Positions 11,102 to 19,042 of a DNA stretch of 43,883 nucleotides are shown here, piece by piece. The stretch lies in assembly GCA_025935755.1 (NCBI GenBank), contig JAICUQ010000011.1, positions 1 through 43,883 on the forward strand. Reading direction: 5' to 3'. The position numbers and the translations under genes are program-made. Source of the stretch: Chthoniobacterales bacterium (GTDB lineage Bacteria; Verrucomicrobiota; Verrucomicrobiia; Chthoniobacterales; UBA10450). Below the pieces are notes generated by a model. The model did no database searches, was not told where the DNA came from, and was given only the letters and a program-made list of their open reading frames with translations. Numbering within the stretch: the stretch's first letter is position 1; each line of letters opens with the position of its first letter.

Positions 11102-11485
11102 ATGAAACGTGTTCTACTGTTGTTTATCTTCTCCGCAGCCGTCCCGTGTTGTCTTTTCGCAAGTGATTCGCTTCCATTTCTCGTGAGTGTCGGTGGTCAG
11201 GCCGCCAAGGACGGAACGCCGTTCGCGAAAATCGAAAGTCCAGTGTCAGCCGATGCGGAAATATCGGTTCAATCGAAGGACGCTATGATCATCGTCAATG
11301 TGAACGCCGTGAACGCGAAAAACGAGCCGGTAGCCGGCTCAACGCCAGCAGTGATTTTGCTGCAGGGTAAAAACAAAACAAATCTCGACAAAACGATGGA
11401 TGGAAAAAAGCTCGCACCCGGCAATTACGTCATGAGTGTGGTAAGCGAAGGAAAAACTGCCAGCATCTTTCTCACCATCAAATAG
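11102..11485 (+). CDS. Hypothetical exported protein
   Basis: A 127-residue product with a signal peptide (MKRVLLLFIFSAAVPCCLFA) and a short mature domain rich in alternating beta-type residues (AEISVQSKDAMIIVNVNAVN, GNYVMSVVSEGKTASIFLTI), suggesting a small Ig-like or transthyretin-like beta sandwich. A Cys pair in the signal region does not fit a standard lipobox. I cannot assign a function. A REP-like repeat follows the stop. Confidence 0.7.
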   Translation: MKRVLLLFIFSAAVPCCLFASDSLPFLVSVGGQAAKDGTPFAKIESPVSADAEISVQSKDAMIIVNVNAVNAKNEPVAGSTPAVILLQGKNKTNLDKTMDGKKLAPGNYVMSVVSEGKTASIFLTIK

Positions 11486-11530
11486 GGTTGCTGGCGAAGC
11501 CGATCTTTGTTCGCACTTAAACACCGATCT

Positions 11531-11619
11531 GTCATTCTGAGCGAAGCGAAGGATCTCTGGCGATTGTTCTATCCGCCGGCACCAGGTCCAGAGATATTTC
11601 GCGTCGCTCAACACGGCAG
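11531..11619. repeat. REP-like inverted repeat
   Basis: The arm at 11531-11560 (gtcattctgagcgaagcgaa...) and the degenerate arm at 11588-11619 form an imperfect hairpin of the common VILSEAKDL/LRFAQND type. It lies between the exported protein gene and peptide gene 1, and explains the spurious open frames 11507-11815 plus and 11339-11614 minus. Confidence 0.7.
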
Positions 11620-11729
11620 CAGGCGTGTACGTGGATTCACCTATTTCAGGAGGGAAGATCTATCTCACCGTGAGAGTATGCCGGATTCCAGCGAAGCTGG
11701 TCCAATTACCACCGCGATGAACGCCAGGC

Positions 11730-11909
11730 CTAATGGTTGCCCCTGTTTTCCGTGCTGCCTGTGCCGCCCTTGCCGGTGGGTGTTGATGTGCCGGCAATAC
11801 TGCCTCCACCTTTGACGTCCTTTCTCGGCTCCAAGTCACGAAATTTAGCTTTCTTAAGTCGGCGCCAAACGGATTGAACTACATGGATGTTAGGCGTTTG
11901 CTCCTCCAT
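11730..11909 (-). CDS. Peptide 1: GG-leader peptide precursor (59 residues)
   Basis: A predicted substrate of the C39 exporter encoded next door, divergent from it. The leader is basic (VWRRLKKAK) and carries RDLEPRKDVKGG, with GG at residues 34-35. The remaining 24-residue tail (starts GSIAGTSTPTGKGG, ends TENRGNH) is Gly/Thr-rich with no cysteine. The motif matches those of peptides 2 and 3 at every conserved position. The start at 11909 is fixed because an in-frame TAA lies 12 bases upstream; only a weak AAGGG precedes it. The stop TAG occupies 11732-11730. The gap to the exporter operon start (12052) is 142 bases. A 5-bp hairpin (11688-11700) follows but has no T run. The gene is easily missed because of its size. 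Confidence 0.75.
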   Translation of the reverse strand: MEEQTPNIHVVQSVWRRLKKAKFRDLEPRKDVKGGGSIAGTSTPTGKGGTGSTENRGNH

Positions 11910-12051
11910 GGCCCTTATAGGTTAACGAACCGAAAGATTACTCGCAAACATTTAGTTCCATCGTTCACAAAAAACGCGGCTGTCAGGCTCCAGGAACCCC
12001 TTAGGGAGAGCTCGACTTTCTTGCTAGAATGCTGTAGAAAGCTGCTCTCCA

Positions 12052-13140
12052 ATGTCCAGCACAGAGTCAGTTTCGCCTCACGACGTAATCGTGTGCGCGT
12101 GCGGAACTCGGGAGTACACAGCGCGCGATGCGATTGATGCGGCTATGTTTCGGGGCGAACTCAAGGAAAAATGGCAGACATTTCTCCGAAACGTCGCGGC
12201 GCAAGACCGTGCAGACGAACTGGAGCTGGAGTTGGACGAGTCGGCTATTTCTAAAGCGGCGGAAGAGTTTCGGTATGGCCACGATTTAATCACTGCGGAA
12301 GAAACCGAAACATGGCTGGCGAATCGTGGCCTTACGTTTGATGACTTCAGCGATTACTTCGCGCGTCAATATTGCGCCGGTGCGGTTAAGGACGGCTTTT
12401 CTCCCGAGCAAATAGCATACAACTCGGCAGATCCAGAGCTGCGGGGCATGTTCGTGGCAGAGTTGATTATGTCCGGCGCGTTGGACAATATGACCGTCGA
12501 ACTGATGAGGCGTCTGGCCGCACGTTGCGCTGGAGAGGAACCTGCGTCAGAAGCGATCGCGGCCGAAAAGCAGAATTTTTTGCATCGAACTTGCATTGAG
12601 CCTGGGCAATTAGCCGATTGGTTGGAACAATCGGGGCGCGGTTTGCAGTGGTTGGAAGAAATGCTGGCGATGGAGGCGGCGTACACACTACTTTGTGCGA
12701 CTCTGCTGGTTCCTGAAGCACGCCAACGGGCCTTAATGGCTCTGCGTTTGCGCCTGACACGATTTGAAATCGAACGCATTGAGTTAGAATCGCACGATGC
12801 TGCGAAGGAAGCGCTGTTTTGTGTCCGTGAAGACGGGATGTCGATGGAGGAAGTTGCGACTGAAGGCGGATATCCTTACCGGCGCGCGGAGTTTCTCATG
12901 GAAGATGTCCCGGCGGATGCGCAACAGAAATACTTCAGCATTTCGCAAGGGGACCTGCTGGCACCGATGCCCCACGGCGATGGATTCGAACTGTGCCGGG
13001 TCATAAAGAAAGTCGAGCCGCAATTACAGGACCCGATCGTCAGATCGCGCGTCGACCGGCGGCTACTTGACCATTACTTTGCAGACCTGACGACCAAGTA
13101 TACCCATGCGCGCTTGAGCGTTCCTGTTCCAGTGGAATGA
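12052..13140 (+). CDS. Cytoplasmic parvulin/SurA-like peptide-maturation protein
   Basis: The 362-residue product is mostly helical in its first 240 residues and resembles the chaperone part of SurA/PrsA. A C-terminal segment (about 255-350) matches parvulin-type PpiC organisation: ALFCVREDGMSMEEVATEGG, FSISQGDLLAPMPHGDGFEL, then a closing helix. Unlike SurA it has no signal peptide, so it should act in the cytoplasm, perhaps holding precursor peptides unfolded for the exporter. Whether it has prolyl-isomerase activity is unclear; canonical active-site residues are not obvious. Proteins of this general type occur beside peptide-export ABC transporters. Its stop overlaps the next start as ATGA (13137-13140). 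Confidence 0.75.
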   Translation: MSSTESVSPHDVIVCACGTREYTARDAIDAAMFRGELKEKWQTFLRNVAAQDRADELELELDESAISKAAEEFRYGHDLITAEETETWLANRGLTFDDFSDYFARQYCAGAVKDGFSPEQIAYNSADPELRGMFVAELIMSGALDNMTVELMRRLAARCAGEEPASEAIAAEKQNFLHRTCIEPGQLADWLEQSGRGLQWLEEMLAMEAAYTLLCATLLVPEARQRALMALRLRLTRFEIERIELESHDAAKEALFCVREDGMSMEEVATEGGYPYRRAEFLMEDVPADAQQKYFSISQGDLLAPMPHGDGFELCRVIKKVEPQLQDPIVRSRVDRRLLDHYFADLTTKYTHARLSVPVPVE

Positions 13141-16100
13141 AAATCCAAGACAGCGAAGTTTTACGACGCTCATCGATGTTCCGGTTCGTTTCCGATGAAC
13201 ATTTTGCCGCGATCGAGCCGCTTCTTCAGGAAGAACATTACGAGTTTGGCGAGATCATCGTGAAACAGGGCGATCCCGCCGATTCGTTTTACGTCCTGAC
13301 AAAAGGGCGGGCGCGTGCCCTGAAAATCAAAGCCGATGGTGAAGAGATCCCGTTGGGAGTACTCAAGCCGGGAGATTCTTTCGGCGAGGCTGCATTAGCC
13401 GAAGGCGGAACGCGAAATGCAACCGTGCGCTGTAGCACCGCGGTGGATGTTTTACGGATCGATCGCGATGACTTTCTTCAACTTATCCGCCGCGTACCAG
13501 ACCTAAAACAATATATCGAAACAACCGGCCGCAACCGCGCCCTTCAAAGCTTCCTTTATCAATTCAGCAACTTCGGCCGGTTGCCGACCGCGGTGTTGCG
13601 CGGAGTGCTCGACAAGCTAACGCCCGTCACATTCGAAAAAGGCAATCTGATCATTAAAGAAGGGGATAGCGCCGGGCCCCTTTATGTGATCGAGAAAGGA
13701 CGAGCGCGCGCATTCTCCGGGTTGAACGGACGGGAGCGCAATCTCGCGTTCTACCGCGAGGGGGATTTTTTTGGTGAATTGTCGATCTTGAACGACTCAG
13801 CCCGCGCGGCATCCGTGGAAGCATTCACAGACTGCCAACTCCTTTCGTTGGAACCAAAATCTGTGCGAGACCTTCGCCGTCGATTTCCTGAATTCGACAA
13901 ACTGTTAAGCGAGCGGTTAGCGCGATACGAGGCGAAAACCGAAGCGCGTGTCCCGCTCGATTTCGCGAACGAGCTGCTCCCTGCCGAAACACAAGTGCAC
14001 GATAAAGTGCAACTCGACGGCCAACATCCGGTTCAGCAGCCAAGTGGGGAAACGCAGACCCAGGAAGAACCGTTCGCCGACGATCGAGGTGTTTTCCGCA
14101 AACGCGGTAAACACGTCCGCAAGATCGATCACATCATGCAGATCGATGAGATGGATTGCGGTGCCGCCTGTCTCGGAATGATCTGCAGGCATTTTGGTCG
14201 CAAGGTGAGCCTGGCAAGGATTCGACAGCTTTGTCACACAGCGACCGACGGTACGAGCCTGAAAGCGATTTCTCGCGCGGCGACCGAACTCGGATTGGCG
14301 GCGCGTCCATTGAAGATTTCGTACAGGCATCTGCCGCAGATGCCGCTTCCAGCGATTGTTCACTGGGAAGGTAATCATTGGATCGTTCTCTACGATGTGG
14401 AGGAGCAATTTGTGCGCGTTGCCGATCCCGCGCGGGGACTGCGTAAGATCTCGCGAAGCGAATTTGAGACGAACTGGACCGGTTACGCGGCGCTGTTCGA
14501 TTACACACCAGCGTTCGAACAAGCCCCGGAAAGCAGGCCAACGCTGGCCTGGGTCCTGCCGTTTCTCTCACGATTTAAAGGGATTTTGCTGCAGGCTCTT
14601 GGACTGGCGGTTGCTGTCAGTTTCCTGCAATTATTGTTCCCCGTATTTACCCAAATCGTCGTCGACAAAGTGATCGTCGAAAACGACATCGGCTTGCTGA
14701 AAATCATTCTGCTGGGGATGTTTGCCGCGCTTATTTTCGTACAGCTCGCCACACTTGCGCAGGAATACCTGCTCTCATTTGCCGCAGTACGTCTCGATAC
14801 GGCGATTCTCGATTTTTTGAGCCGGAAACTTTTGTCGCTTCCGATGAGTTATTTTACAAGCCGTCGAACCGGCGACATCCAGCGCAGGCTGGAAGGGGCG
14901 AGACAAGTTCGGCAATTGGCCGTGCAACAGGGGGTTGGCGCGTTACTGGCAGCGGTTTTTCTAGTCGGCGCAATCATTTTGATGGCAATTTACAGTCCAC
15001 TGCTGACTGTCGCGTTCCTGGCGACAACGCCTTTGTACGTGGGACTGATGATCTTTTCGGTAAAGGTGCTGCGTCCGTTGTATCACGGGGTGGAAGAAAG
15101 CCAGGGCAAATACAGCTCGCATCAAATCGATGCCATCAAAGGGATCGAGGCTGTAAAGGCGGCAGCGGCTGAAGGCTCATTTCGCGATGCCATGCTGAAT
15201 GAGTTTCTTTCGGTCTCGCAAAAACTTTTCAAGGCGACGTTCATCGTGATGTCGTGGGACAGCGTCCTGCAAACAATCGGTTTATTGTCTACTGCCATTT
15301 TCCTGTGGGTCGGCGCACTGCAAGTGATTCACGGCGACTTGAGTGTCGGTGGTTTTGTCGCTTTCAGTTCGCTCACGGCCATGGCATACGCGGGGATTTT
15401 GCGCGCCCTTGGAGTTTGGGACAACGTGCAACTCGCTTCTGTCCTGCTAAACCGGTTGAATGACATTTTTGAGCAGGAACCAGAGCAGGGTCATGATCGC
15501 TCGCGGCTCGTTCCGGTGCGCAGTCTCGAGGGACACATCGAGTTGCGCGGAGTCAGCTTCAAATATGGCGGCCCTGAATCGCCTGACATCCTAAAGAATA
15601 TCACGCTCAATCTGTTGCCCGGACGCACAGTGGCATTCGTTGGCCGGAGTGGAAGCGGCAAAACAACGCTGATCAAATTGATCGCAGGCCTGCTCGAGCC
15701 TACTGAGGGAACGATCTTCTTCGATCACGTCGATTTAAAGACTCTGAACTATCGCGACGTGCGACGGCACATCGGCACTGTTCTCCAGGAAAACCACATG
15801 TTTAACGAGACGATCGCGCGTAATATTTCATTCGGCGATGCGGAACCGGATCTCGATCGCGTGCTAGCCGCCGCCCAGGCTGCGGCCGCCCACGATTTCA
15901 TTATGCGTTTACCGCTCGGTTATGAGACAAAGATCGGAGAATCAGGTCTCTCGCTCTCGGGCGGTCAAAAGCAGCGCATCGCGATCGCGCGAGCCATTTA
16001 CAACAATCCACCTGTGTTGATCTTTGATGAGGCAACGAGTGCGCTCGACACAGAATCCGAACGCGCGATCCAGGACAATCTCGCCCGATTGCTGGCCGGC

Positions 16101-16262
16101 CGTACCACCATCGTAATCGCACATCGATTGAGCACCATTCGAGAAGCGCATTCTATTGTTGTGCTGGAGAAGGGTAGCGTTGCCGAGATTGGCACTCATG
16201 ATGAGCTGATGGCGCAGCGCGGTTTGTATTACTACCTTTCGAGCCAGCAACTCGGAATCTAA
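13137..16262 (+). CDS. Peptidase-containing ABC exporter with two cyclic-nucleotide-binding domains
   Basis: A 1041-residue inner-membrane exporter expected to cut precursor peptides after GG and export them using ATP. Domain order: cNMP-binding domain 1 (about 14-125, cassette FGEAALAEGGTRNATV), cNMP-binding domain 2 (about 145-262, FGELSILNDSARAASV), acidic linker, C39 peptidase (about 328-455) with Gln335, Cys341, His414 and Asp430 all present, ABC membrane domain (about 470-770), and nucleotide-binding domain from about 800 with Walker A GRSGSGKT, signature LSGGQKQR, Walker B LIFDEATSALD and H-loop AHRLS. Both cNMP cassettes keep the Gly-Glu and Arg residues that contact the ligand. This architecture resembles bacteriocin-type exporters such as cyanobacterial HetC-like proteins. 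It is translationally coupled to the parvulin-like gene. No TolC-like outer-membrane channel gene is in the window. Confidence 0.95.
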   Translation: MKIQDSEVLRRSSMFRFVSDEHFAAIEPLLQEEHYEFGEIIVKQGDPADSFYVLTKGRARALKIKADGEEIPLGVLKPGDSFGEAALAEGGTRNATVRCSTAVDVLRIDRDDFLQLIRRVPDLKQYIETTGRNRALQSFLYQFSNFGRLPTAVLRGVLDKLTPVTFEKGNLIIKEGDSAGPLYVIEKGRARAFSGLNGRERNLAFYREGDFFGELSILNDSARAASVEAFTDCQLLSLEPKSVRDLRRRFPEFDKLLSERLARYEAKTEARVPLDFANELLPAETQVHDKVQLDGQHPVQQPSGETQTQEEPFADDRGVFRKRGKHVRKIDHIMQIDEMDCGAACLGMICRHFGRKVSLARIRQLCHTATDGTSLKAISRAATELGLAARPLKISYRHLPQMPLPAIVHWEGNHWIVLYDVEEQFVRVADPARGLRKISRSEFETNWTGYAALFDYTPAFEQAPESRPTLAWVLPFLSRFKGILLQALGLAVAVSFLQLLFPVFTQIVVDKVIVENDIGLLKIILLGMFAALIFVQLATLAQEYLLSFAAVRLDTAILDFLSRKLLSLPMSYFTSRRTGDIQRRLEGARQVRQLAVQQGVGALLAAVFLVGAIILMAIYSPLLTVAFLATTPLYVGLMIFSVKVLRPLYHGVEESQGKYSSHQIDAIKGIEAVKAAAAEGSFRDAMLNEFLSVSQKLFKATFIVMSWDSVLQTIGLLSTAIFLWVGALQVIHGDLSVGGFVAFSSLTAMAYAGILRALGVWDNVQLASVLLNRLNDIFEQEPEQGHDRSRLVPVRSLEGHIELRGVSFKYGGPESPDILKNITLNLLPGRTVAFVGRSGSGKTTLIKLIAGLLEPTEGTIFFDHVDLKTLNYRDVRRHIGTVLQENHMFNETIARNISFGDAEPDLDRVLAAAQAAAAHDFIMRLPLGYETKIGESGLSLSGGQKQRIAIARAIYNNPPVLIFDEATSALDTESERAIQDNLARLLAGRTTIVIAHRLSTIREAHSIVVLEKGSVAEIGTHDELMAQRGLYYYLSSQQLGI

Positions 16263-17463: not shown

Positions 17464-18483
17464 ATGCAGCCGCGGCCGTCCAAGTTAAGACTCCAACACC
17501 TAACGACCAACAATGAGGCAATGGCGCGTTGTCTTCAATTGGCCGGACTCGCTGCGCGATCCGATGTGCCCGTGGTACTGCTCGGCGAGACTGGCACGGG
17601 GAAAACATTGCTGGCGCAGGCTATCCATAATTCATCAAAGCGGGGAAATGGGCCTTTCATCTCATTTAACGCGGCGGCAATCAGCGACACTTTGCTCGAG
17701 AGTCAGTTGTTCGGTCACGAACGGGGAGCATTCACCGGCGCGCAACAAACGATTAAAGGAAAGTTCGAACTGGCCGACCAAGGCACGCTTTTTTTGGATG
17801 AGATCTCGGAGATGAGTCCTCTGGCACAGGTAAAAGTCTTGCGCGTTCTGGAGTATGGCGAATTCGAGCGTTTGGGCTCTGAGCGAATGCTCACCTCCAA
17901 CGCACGAATCATTTGTGCGGCCAATTGTTCGCTGCGAGAACGTGTGCGATTGGGAAAACTTCGGGAGGATCTCTATCAGCGACTCAATGGCCTTACGCTT
18001 CTTATCCCTCCGCTTCGAGAACGGCTGGAAGAATTGCCGGCATTGATCGCCACGGAATTGCAAATTGCCGCAACGAAAGAAGGCAAATCAATCACGGCAA
18101 TTCATCCGGAAGCGATGGATAAGCTGCTTCGTCACGACTGGCCGGGTAATCTGCGCGAACTGAGTCACACGGTGCGGACGATGACTCTCTTTTGCGATGA
18201 TTCGGTGATTCTCCCTGAGCATGTTGTATTTCCCGCGGATCTCGAACCGGATCGGGCAGCATCAGCAACCCAACAGCCAGAGCCGCTGCCCGCGAGCAAT
18301 CACCAGGAAGCTGATGCGGTTGTCGATCTCTCACTGGAATGCGCAATCCAAAAGCATGTTCGGCTGGTTTATGAACAGACAAATCGGAACCAGCGACGCG
18401 CCGCCCGATTACTTGGTATTTCTCGTTCGACTCTCGCCCGGTATCTGCGCGAGGTGCTTAAAAATAAATCACCCTCGGCCTAA
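17464..18483 (+). CDS. Sigma-54-dependent activator without receiver domain
   Basis: A PspF-like bacterial enhancer-binding protein of 339 residues. Only about 20 residues precede the AAA+ domain: Walker A GETGTGKT (41-48), sigma-54-contact motif GAFTGA (88-93), Walker B TLFLDE (108-113), and the arginine-finger region around LREDLYQRLNGLTL. A Fis-type helix-turn-helix ends the protein (QRRAARLLGISRSTLARYLRE). The missing N-terminal domain means its activity is not set by phosphorylation or ligand binding within the protein itself. It starts 6 bases after the HlyD gene. The likely targets are the peptide genes that follow; see the sigma-54-like site at 18635. Confidence 0.93.
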   Translation: MQPRPSKLRLQHLTTNNEAMARCLQLAGLAARSDVPVVLLGETGTGKTLLAQAIHNSSKRGNGPFISFNAAAISDTLLESQLFGHERGAFTGAQQTIKGKFELADQGTLFLDEISEMSPLAQVKVLRVLEYGEFERLGSERMLTSNARIICAANCSLRERVRLGKLREDLYQRLNGLTLLIPPLRERLEELPALIATELQIAATKEGKSITAIHPEAMDKLLRHDWPGNLRELSHTVRTMTLFCDDSVILPEHVVFPADLEPDRAASATQQPEPLPASNHQEADAVVDLSLECAIQKHVRLVYEQTNRNQRRAARLLGISRSTLARYLREVLKNKSPSA

Positions 18484-18668: not shown

Positions 18669-18854
18669 GTGAATACACCGAGCAATAAAAAGAATGCGCC
18701 CGCCGTGCAGTCAGACGGTAAAAGGCGCAGGCGCACCAAGGATAAGTTGATTCGCCTTAACGACCTCATTCCAGAAAAGGACGTCAAGGGTGGGCACCAA
18801 GTGCTCTTCGGTGTCAGTGACACAACTCAAACTAACAACCCGAAAAATAAATAG
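18669..18854 (+). CDS. Peptide 2: GG-leader peptide precursor (61 residues)
   Basis: A predicted exporter substrate. The basic leader (GKRRRRTKDK) carries NDLIPEKDVKGG with GG at residues 41-42, then a 19-residue tail HQVLFGVSDTTQTNNPKNK. No cysteine anywhere. It starts with GTG preceded by GGAG at 7-base spacing. It lies 185 bases downstream of the sigma-54 activator and 14 bases before peptide 3, with which it is presumably co-transcribed. The leader motif is shared with peptides 1 and 3. I do not recognise the tail. Confidence 0.75.
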   Translation: MNTPSNKKNAPAVQSDGKRRRRTKDKLIRLNDLIPEKDVKGGHQVLFGVSDTTQTNNPKNK

Positions 18855-18868
18855 TCAGGAAACGCAAA

Positions 18869-19042
18869 ATGGCACAAAGAAAAGAAAGCAAACCGAAAAT
18901 CAAAGTCCGCGATCTGAAACCGAAAAAAGATACCAGGGGTGGCGTCGTCGCTGACGTCAACGCCCAGGCGCACCAACAGAACCACAGTGTTCAAACCCGT
19001 GGCACCCAGGGAAAAGGACACAGCGTAGATAGGTGGATTTAG
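18869..19042 (+). CDS. Peptide 3: GG-leader peptide precursor (57 residues)
   Basis: ATG at 18869 is preceded by AGGA (18857-18860) at good spacing. The short Lys-rich leader (MAQRKESKPKIKV) ends in RDLKPKKDTRGG with GG at residues 24-25. The 32-residue tail begins VVADVNAQAHQQNHSV and ends GHSVDRWI. It is hydrophilic, Gln/His-rich and without cysteine. A strong hairpin with a T run follows the stop by 5 bases, closing the transcript. The gene is under 60 codons and easily missed. Confidence 0.78.
   Translation: MAQRKESKPKIKVRDLKPKKDTRGGVVADVNAQAHQQNHSVQTRGTQGKGHSVDRWI

Follow-up and report, generated by a model that had tools for sequence, protein, structure and literature searches.

A predicted double-glycine-type peptide precursor with a non-canonical leader beside a C39 exporter cassette in a Chthoniobacterales bacterium

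We analysed a stretch of 43,883 nucleotides from a Chthoniobacterales bacterium (assembly GCA_025935755.1, contig JAICUQ010000011.1), referred to here as the window. A first-pass annotation had claimed a 59-codon minus-strand gene at 11730-11909, and an open reading frame with an ATG start is present at exactly those coordinates. Its product starts MEEQTPNIHVVQSVWRRLKKAKFRDLEPRKDVKGGG and reads MEEQTPNIHVVQSVWRRLKKAKFRDLEPRKDVKGGGSIAGTSTPTGKGGTGSTENRGNH in full. The frame is intergenic, flanked by 11102-11485 (+) and 12052-13140 (+), and, as had also been claimed, overlaps no other gene; the only overlapping frames are mechanical ORFs, none of them a credible gene. The start codon diverges from that of a SurA-like gene, the two being 142 bases apart. 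The features of the locus are as follows.

11730-11909, minus strand: putative SxWRR-type precursor gene, 59 codons plus stop (11732-11730); leader aa 1-35, predicted core aa 36-59
11733-11804, minus strand: predicted released peptide GSIAGTSTPTGKGGTGSTENRGNH, Gly/Thr-rich, no Cys
11805-11909, minus strand: predicted leader MEEQTPNIHVVQSVWRRLKKAKFRDLEPRKDVKGG
11806-11837, minus strand: DLxPxKDxKGG motif, proposed signal for recognition and for cleavage after GG
11910-12051, no strand: intergenic region between the peptide gene and the SurA-like gene
12052-13140, plus strand: SurA/PrsA-like foldase, 362 aa
13137-16262, plus strand: peptide exporter, 1041 aa
16270-17457, plus strand: HlyD-type adaptor
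17464-18483, plus strand: sigma-54-dependent activator
18669-18854, plus strand: precursor-like peptide 1, KLIRLNDLIPEKDVKGG leader, GTG start
18869-19042, plus strand: precursor-like peptide 2, IKVRDLKPKKDTRGG leader

A scan of 11480-12100 for promoters and terminators returned none, with no sigma-70-like promoter match in 11910-12051, and no repeats were found around the ORF. The RDLEPRKDVKGG leader contains the only helix of the AlphaFold model (aa 8-25, pLDDT of about 70, a modest confidence). The rest of the model is of low confidence, and the predicted released peptide (aa 36-59) is disordered in it. Comparison of the three window peptides with Pfam, NCBIfam and PADLOC gave a single weak and meaningless match, and no precursor model was matched.

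The 362-aa protein encoded next to the ORF shows weak similarity to parvulins and to the peptide maturation protein model TIGR04500 (49.8 bits, below the curated cut-off of 180), while its AlphaFold model (pLDDT 83.6) is matched by Foldseek to SurA and PrsA with E values of 1e-5 to 1e-4. The exporter combines two cNMP-binding domains with a C39 peptidase and an ABC permease/ATPase. Residues Gln335, Cys341, His414 and Asp430 of its C39 domain align with their PCAT1 counterparts, and the catalytic residues are, judged by this alignment, intact. The adaptor matches TIGR01843 (4e-41, below the curated cut-off) and HlyD_3 (7.5e-18). The activator, fourth gene of the conserved cassette, has AAA+ and Fis-type HTH domains and no receiver domain. 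Both rpoN, the sigma-54 gene, and TolC-like proteins are present in the genome of the window, which carries one strong C39 exporter. A second, weak and short C39-like peptidase was seen elsewhere in this genome (226-aa frame, G000:C205:1983-2312), with similar weak matches in many genomes of the genus; this could be a separate processing enzyme.

Peptide 1 (NDLIPEKDVKGG) follows directly after the activator in relatives as well, and peptide 2 (RDLKPKKDTRGG) is likewise conserved in the cassette order. The GTG start of peptide 1, whose frame begins V-S-A-P-K-N, appears conserved in relatives, and gene callers may therefore miss or shift this peptide. All three window peptides have D-L-x-P-x-K-D-x-[KR]-G-G in common. 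The minus-strand leader had been said to match those of the two downstream peptides at all conserved positions; this holds for the core motif, but peptide 1 has N instead of the R that precedes DL, and peptide 2 has T and R instead of the V and K that precede GG.

We searched for DLxPxKDxxGG with a degenerate DNA pattern that allows every codon, using the reversed pattern as a control. The 3.67 Mb genome of the window itself yielded 9 matches, each within an open frame (eight of these are short, and the ninth encodes 110 aa from a likely ATG), and 78 relatives yielded 74 matches in 29 genomes. The reversed control gave 0 in both cases, which bears out the earlier remark that finding the motif in a third frame was unlikely by chance. 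Across a phylum-wide sample the motif was found in 4 of 388 genomes, all from Chthoniobacterales, with two matches to the control. A stricter pattern, run on the genomes of 84,980 species of bacteria and archaea, matched 49 stretches, 48 of which are labelled Verrucomicrobia, Spartobacteria, Chthoniobacterales or Ca. Udaeobacter and one Acidobacteria. As far as these sequences indicate, the peptide family is so far almost confined to one order of soil Verrucomicrobia. The SxWRR gene on the contig labelled Acidobacteria gp1 AA150 (QHZR01000089.1, L151) is almost the same as a Verrucomicrobia copy (L129), and this contig is therefore likely to be misassigned or to reflect a transfer.

The gene order foldase, exporter, HlyD, activator, peptide 1 and peptide 2 recurs, whole or in part, in some 20 genomes of the genus. 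Among the 78 relatives, the foldase gene occurs together with the motif in 26 and without it in 5, the motif alone in 3 and neither in 44 (Fisher p = 1.3e-12, in a test that treats related genomes as independent). Most of these genomes are drafts and absence is weak evidence, including for the three peptide-positive genomes with no detected cassette. Cassette and peptides also occur together in a genome from another family of the order (G051). Direct control of the peptide genes by the adjacent sigma-54 activator was considered and is not supported: upstream -24/-12 sites were found for 2 of 24 SxWRR, 2 of 15 type-1 and 1 of 47 type-2 genes, counts that shuffles reach as well.

With an SxWRR peptide from another genome as query, the window ORF was recovered at full length with E = 1.2e-14 and 62% identity. 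The same query matched 22 of the 83 genomes searched in the family, with internal stops in none. Two further genes in the window's genome, on contigs C100 and C250, carry the V-x-S-V-W-R-R-x-x-K N-terminal block together with the motif, and about 25 such genes, the window gene included, occur in the genus and family, a typical sequence in relatives being MKTQIPNINVVRSAWRRVKKDIKDAIIRDLKPVKDVKGGGGVTGESKPTTGGTGTTGTTGDH. By its conserved N-terminal block and the Gly/Thr-rich tail common to these genes, the window gene is assigned to an SxWRR sub-family of its own. In three members (L069 5853-6185, L080 7097-7339 and L081 1903-2265) a long basic C-terminal extension (...ERKAQAERIAKTKQLVLRWLKKG) replaces the Gly/Thr tail, a sequence difference hinting at a different released product in this sub-group.

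The first-pass annotation had proposed looking for the same small gene at the equivalent site in related genomes, and it was found in one relative, a different species. This near-ortholog, MEEQTPNINVVHSVWRRLKKAKIRDLQPVKDVKGGRGVAGKSEPTAGGTGITGITGKHR, lies at 13529-13708 (+) of the contig designated L078, upstream of the same exporter cassette and in divergent orientation to it; the cassette is on the minus strand of that contig, and two other peptide genes lie between. The same sequence was also found on contig QHOX01000151 of isolate AV42. Window positions 11954-11748 align with L078 at 81% identity over 211 alignment columns, the conservation extending into the peptide-proximal part of the intergenic region. 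The dN/dS between the two genes is 0.23 overall, 0.12 for the leader and 0.42 for the tail, with an excess of synonymous change (p = 5e-4) and third-position differences at 10/16 within the first 35 codons. Against most other members the tail gives a dN/dS of about 0.6-1.4, and pooled pN/pS over all pairs is 0.37 for the leader and 0.78 for the tail; these pairs mix orthologs and paralogs, and only the L078 comparison can be read as a rate. These estimates indicate that purifying selection on the window gene is concentrated in the leader. A constrained leader followed by a variable tail is the pattern that would be expected of an exported precursor.

The comparisons also dispose of the notion that the frame is open by chance. 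The ORF is short, as such a reading would have it, but the full-length homolog match, the motif controls and the dN/dS all contradict it; the homologs refute a chance frame, to which we attach next to no probability. Taken together, the sequence comparisons indicate that the ORF at 11909-11730 is a real protein-coding gene.

Most SxWRR genes lie far from any exporter, and no neighbouring gene is common to most of these orphan loci. In relatives (L074, L079, L082, L083, L085, L086, L088 and others) orphan SxWRR genes are surrounded by scattered and frequently degenerate copies of a gene that is small, has no Pfam match, ends ...SHDAVIRVYDEAGNVIETHEHAGDFKEW and is located at about -115 and +250 nt; this is possibly a repeated element that helps to spread the precursors. 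Such surroundings lend something to the view that SxWRR genes spread within small repeated elements and that the window copy is a decayed or selfish one, out of use, as does the divergent and apparently frame-shifted tail of L119. However, the window copy and its near-ortholog retain frame, position and a dN/dS of 0.23, and no fragments of the small gene were detected around the window copy. We therefore regard decay as improbable for the gene studied here.

In the leader, counting back from the predicted cut, D-11, L-10 and P-8 are invariant, D-5 is nearly so, and -4 is mostly V or A, after which the Gly-Gly pair follows. Hydrophobic residues occupy -4, -10, -13 and mostly -15, while -12 is a non-hydrophobic R, D or S, and -7 is hydrophobic in 62% of SxWRR peptides and rarely in other sub-types. 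The locus has Gly-Gly at the leader/core boundary of a short precursor and a C39-ABC exporter with intact catalytic residues, whereas the canonical leader M(R/K)ELX3E(I/L)X2(I/V)XG(G/A) is not present, only -4 and GG agreeing with it throughout.

This departure gives some weight to an intracellular interpretation, in which these are small proteins that stay inside the cell, for example as regulators or adaptors of the exporter or its cNMP-binding domains, with DLxPxKDxKGG acting as an uncleaved binding motif. An invariant Pro and charged residues in a non-canonical motif would suit such a role, as would the many orphan copies and the basic N-termini of several sub-types. It accounts poorly for a motif that always ends in Gly-Gly, precisely where the constrained part meets the variable part, and whose distribution follows that of a C39 exporter with its catalytic residues intact. 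We consider an intracellular role unlikely, if less so than decay. The best reading of the window peptide is that of a predicted double-glycine-type precursor with a lineage-specific, non-canonical leader.

Related export systems have been described in other bacteria. Among the cyanobacterial 'bacteriocin' clusters, groups I, II and VI contain SurA (rotamase), a 'long type' C39-ABC transporter with an N-terminal CAP_ED (cNMP) domain, and HlyD, and their precursors are short, often unannotated, with a leader ending in Gly-Gly and Gly/Ser/Thr-rich cores (Wang, Fewer and Sivonen 2011, PMC3140520). The same trio of SurA-like protein, CAP_ED-C39-ABC exporter and HlyD is found in the window cassette, which differs in belonging to another phylum, in having a sigma-54 activator as a fourth gene, in its RDLxPxKDxKGG leader in place of the canonical one, and in predicted cores without Cys. 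In Pfam and NCBIfam the window peptides match none of the cyanobacterial precursor families NHLP, N11P, HetP and DUF37 (PMC3140520). The C39-ABC and HlyD export logic is also common to the NHLP/Nif11-type systems (TIGR03796, TIGR03794). In NCBIfam the window exporter is matched best by TIGR03796, though exporter and HlyD both fall below the curated cut-offs, and unlike in those systems the peptides match no NCBIfam precursor model. In Synechococcus elongatus, the small Gly-Gly proteins EbfG1-4 leave the cell through PteB, a C39-domain transporter that needs its Cys, and serve biofilm formation and not killing (PMC4997328); here the likeness is one of description (small Gly-Gly proteins with a C39-domain transporter). 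Among the papers listed for Verrucomicrobia C39/double-glycine peptides, Udaeobacter bacteriocins or cNMP-C39-SurA cassettes, a set in which subscription journals are thinly covered, we found no description of the present system, so that one could have been missed.

A precursor gene with the leader of the two downstream peptides, as first suggested, is best supported because the frame is conserved, a syntenic near-ortholog exists, purifying selection centres on the leader and the motif tracks the exporter cassette. At a probability of roughly three in four, we propose that the ORF encodes a double-glycine-type precursor whose leader is read by the adjacent C39 exporter and cut after GG, the Gly/Thr-rich peptide then being exported. 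Residues 1-35 would form the leader, with the N-terminal SxWRR helix followed by RDLxPxKDxKGG, probably a previously undescribed address tag for cutting and export by the neighbouring exporter. The C39 domain of the 13137-16262 exporter would recognise this leader, with the SurA-like foldase assisting, and cleavage after Gly-Gly would free a peptide of roughly 24 residues that could leave via an ABC-HlyD-TolC route. With most precursors encoded at a distance from it, a single exporter in each genome would handle several scattered precursors, mostly in trans. Competition, signalling and a surface or biofilm function are all candidate roles for the released peptide; the EbfG proteins of Synechococcus have a role in forming biofilms, and killing is therefore not to be assumed.

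Little is known of secreted peptides in the Chthoniobacterales soil lineage. The present family adds an overlooked group of small genes to a dominant soil lineage, with records that include Ca. Udaeobacter and other Chthoniobacterales, and a simple DNA pattern is now usable for finding further members. With a leader unlike the textbook double-glycine consensus, the family also makes substrate choice by C39 domains directly testable. More tentatively, and with rather less than even confidence, we suggest a set of exported peptides restricted to Chthoniobacterales and marked by RDLxPxKDxKGG as a new leader code, in which one C39 exporter reads many dispersed genes to give a combinatorial signalling or competition repertoire under an operon-encoded activator. 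If this is true, abundant and hard-to-culture soil bacteria would hold combinatorial secreted peptides for signalling or competition.
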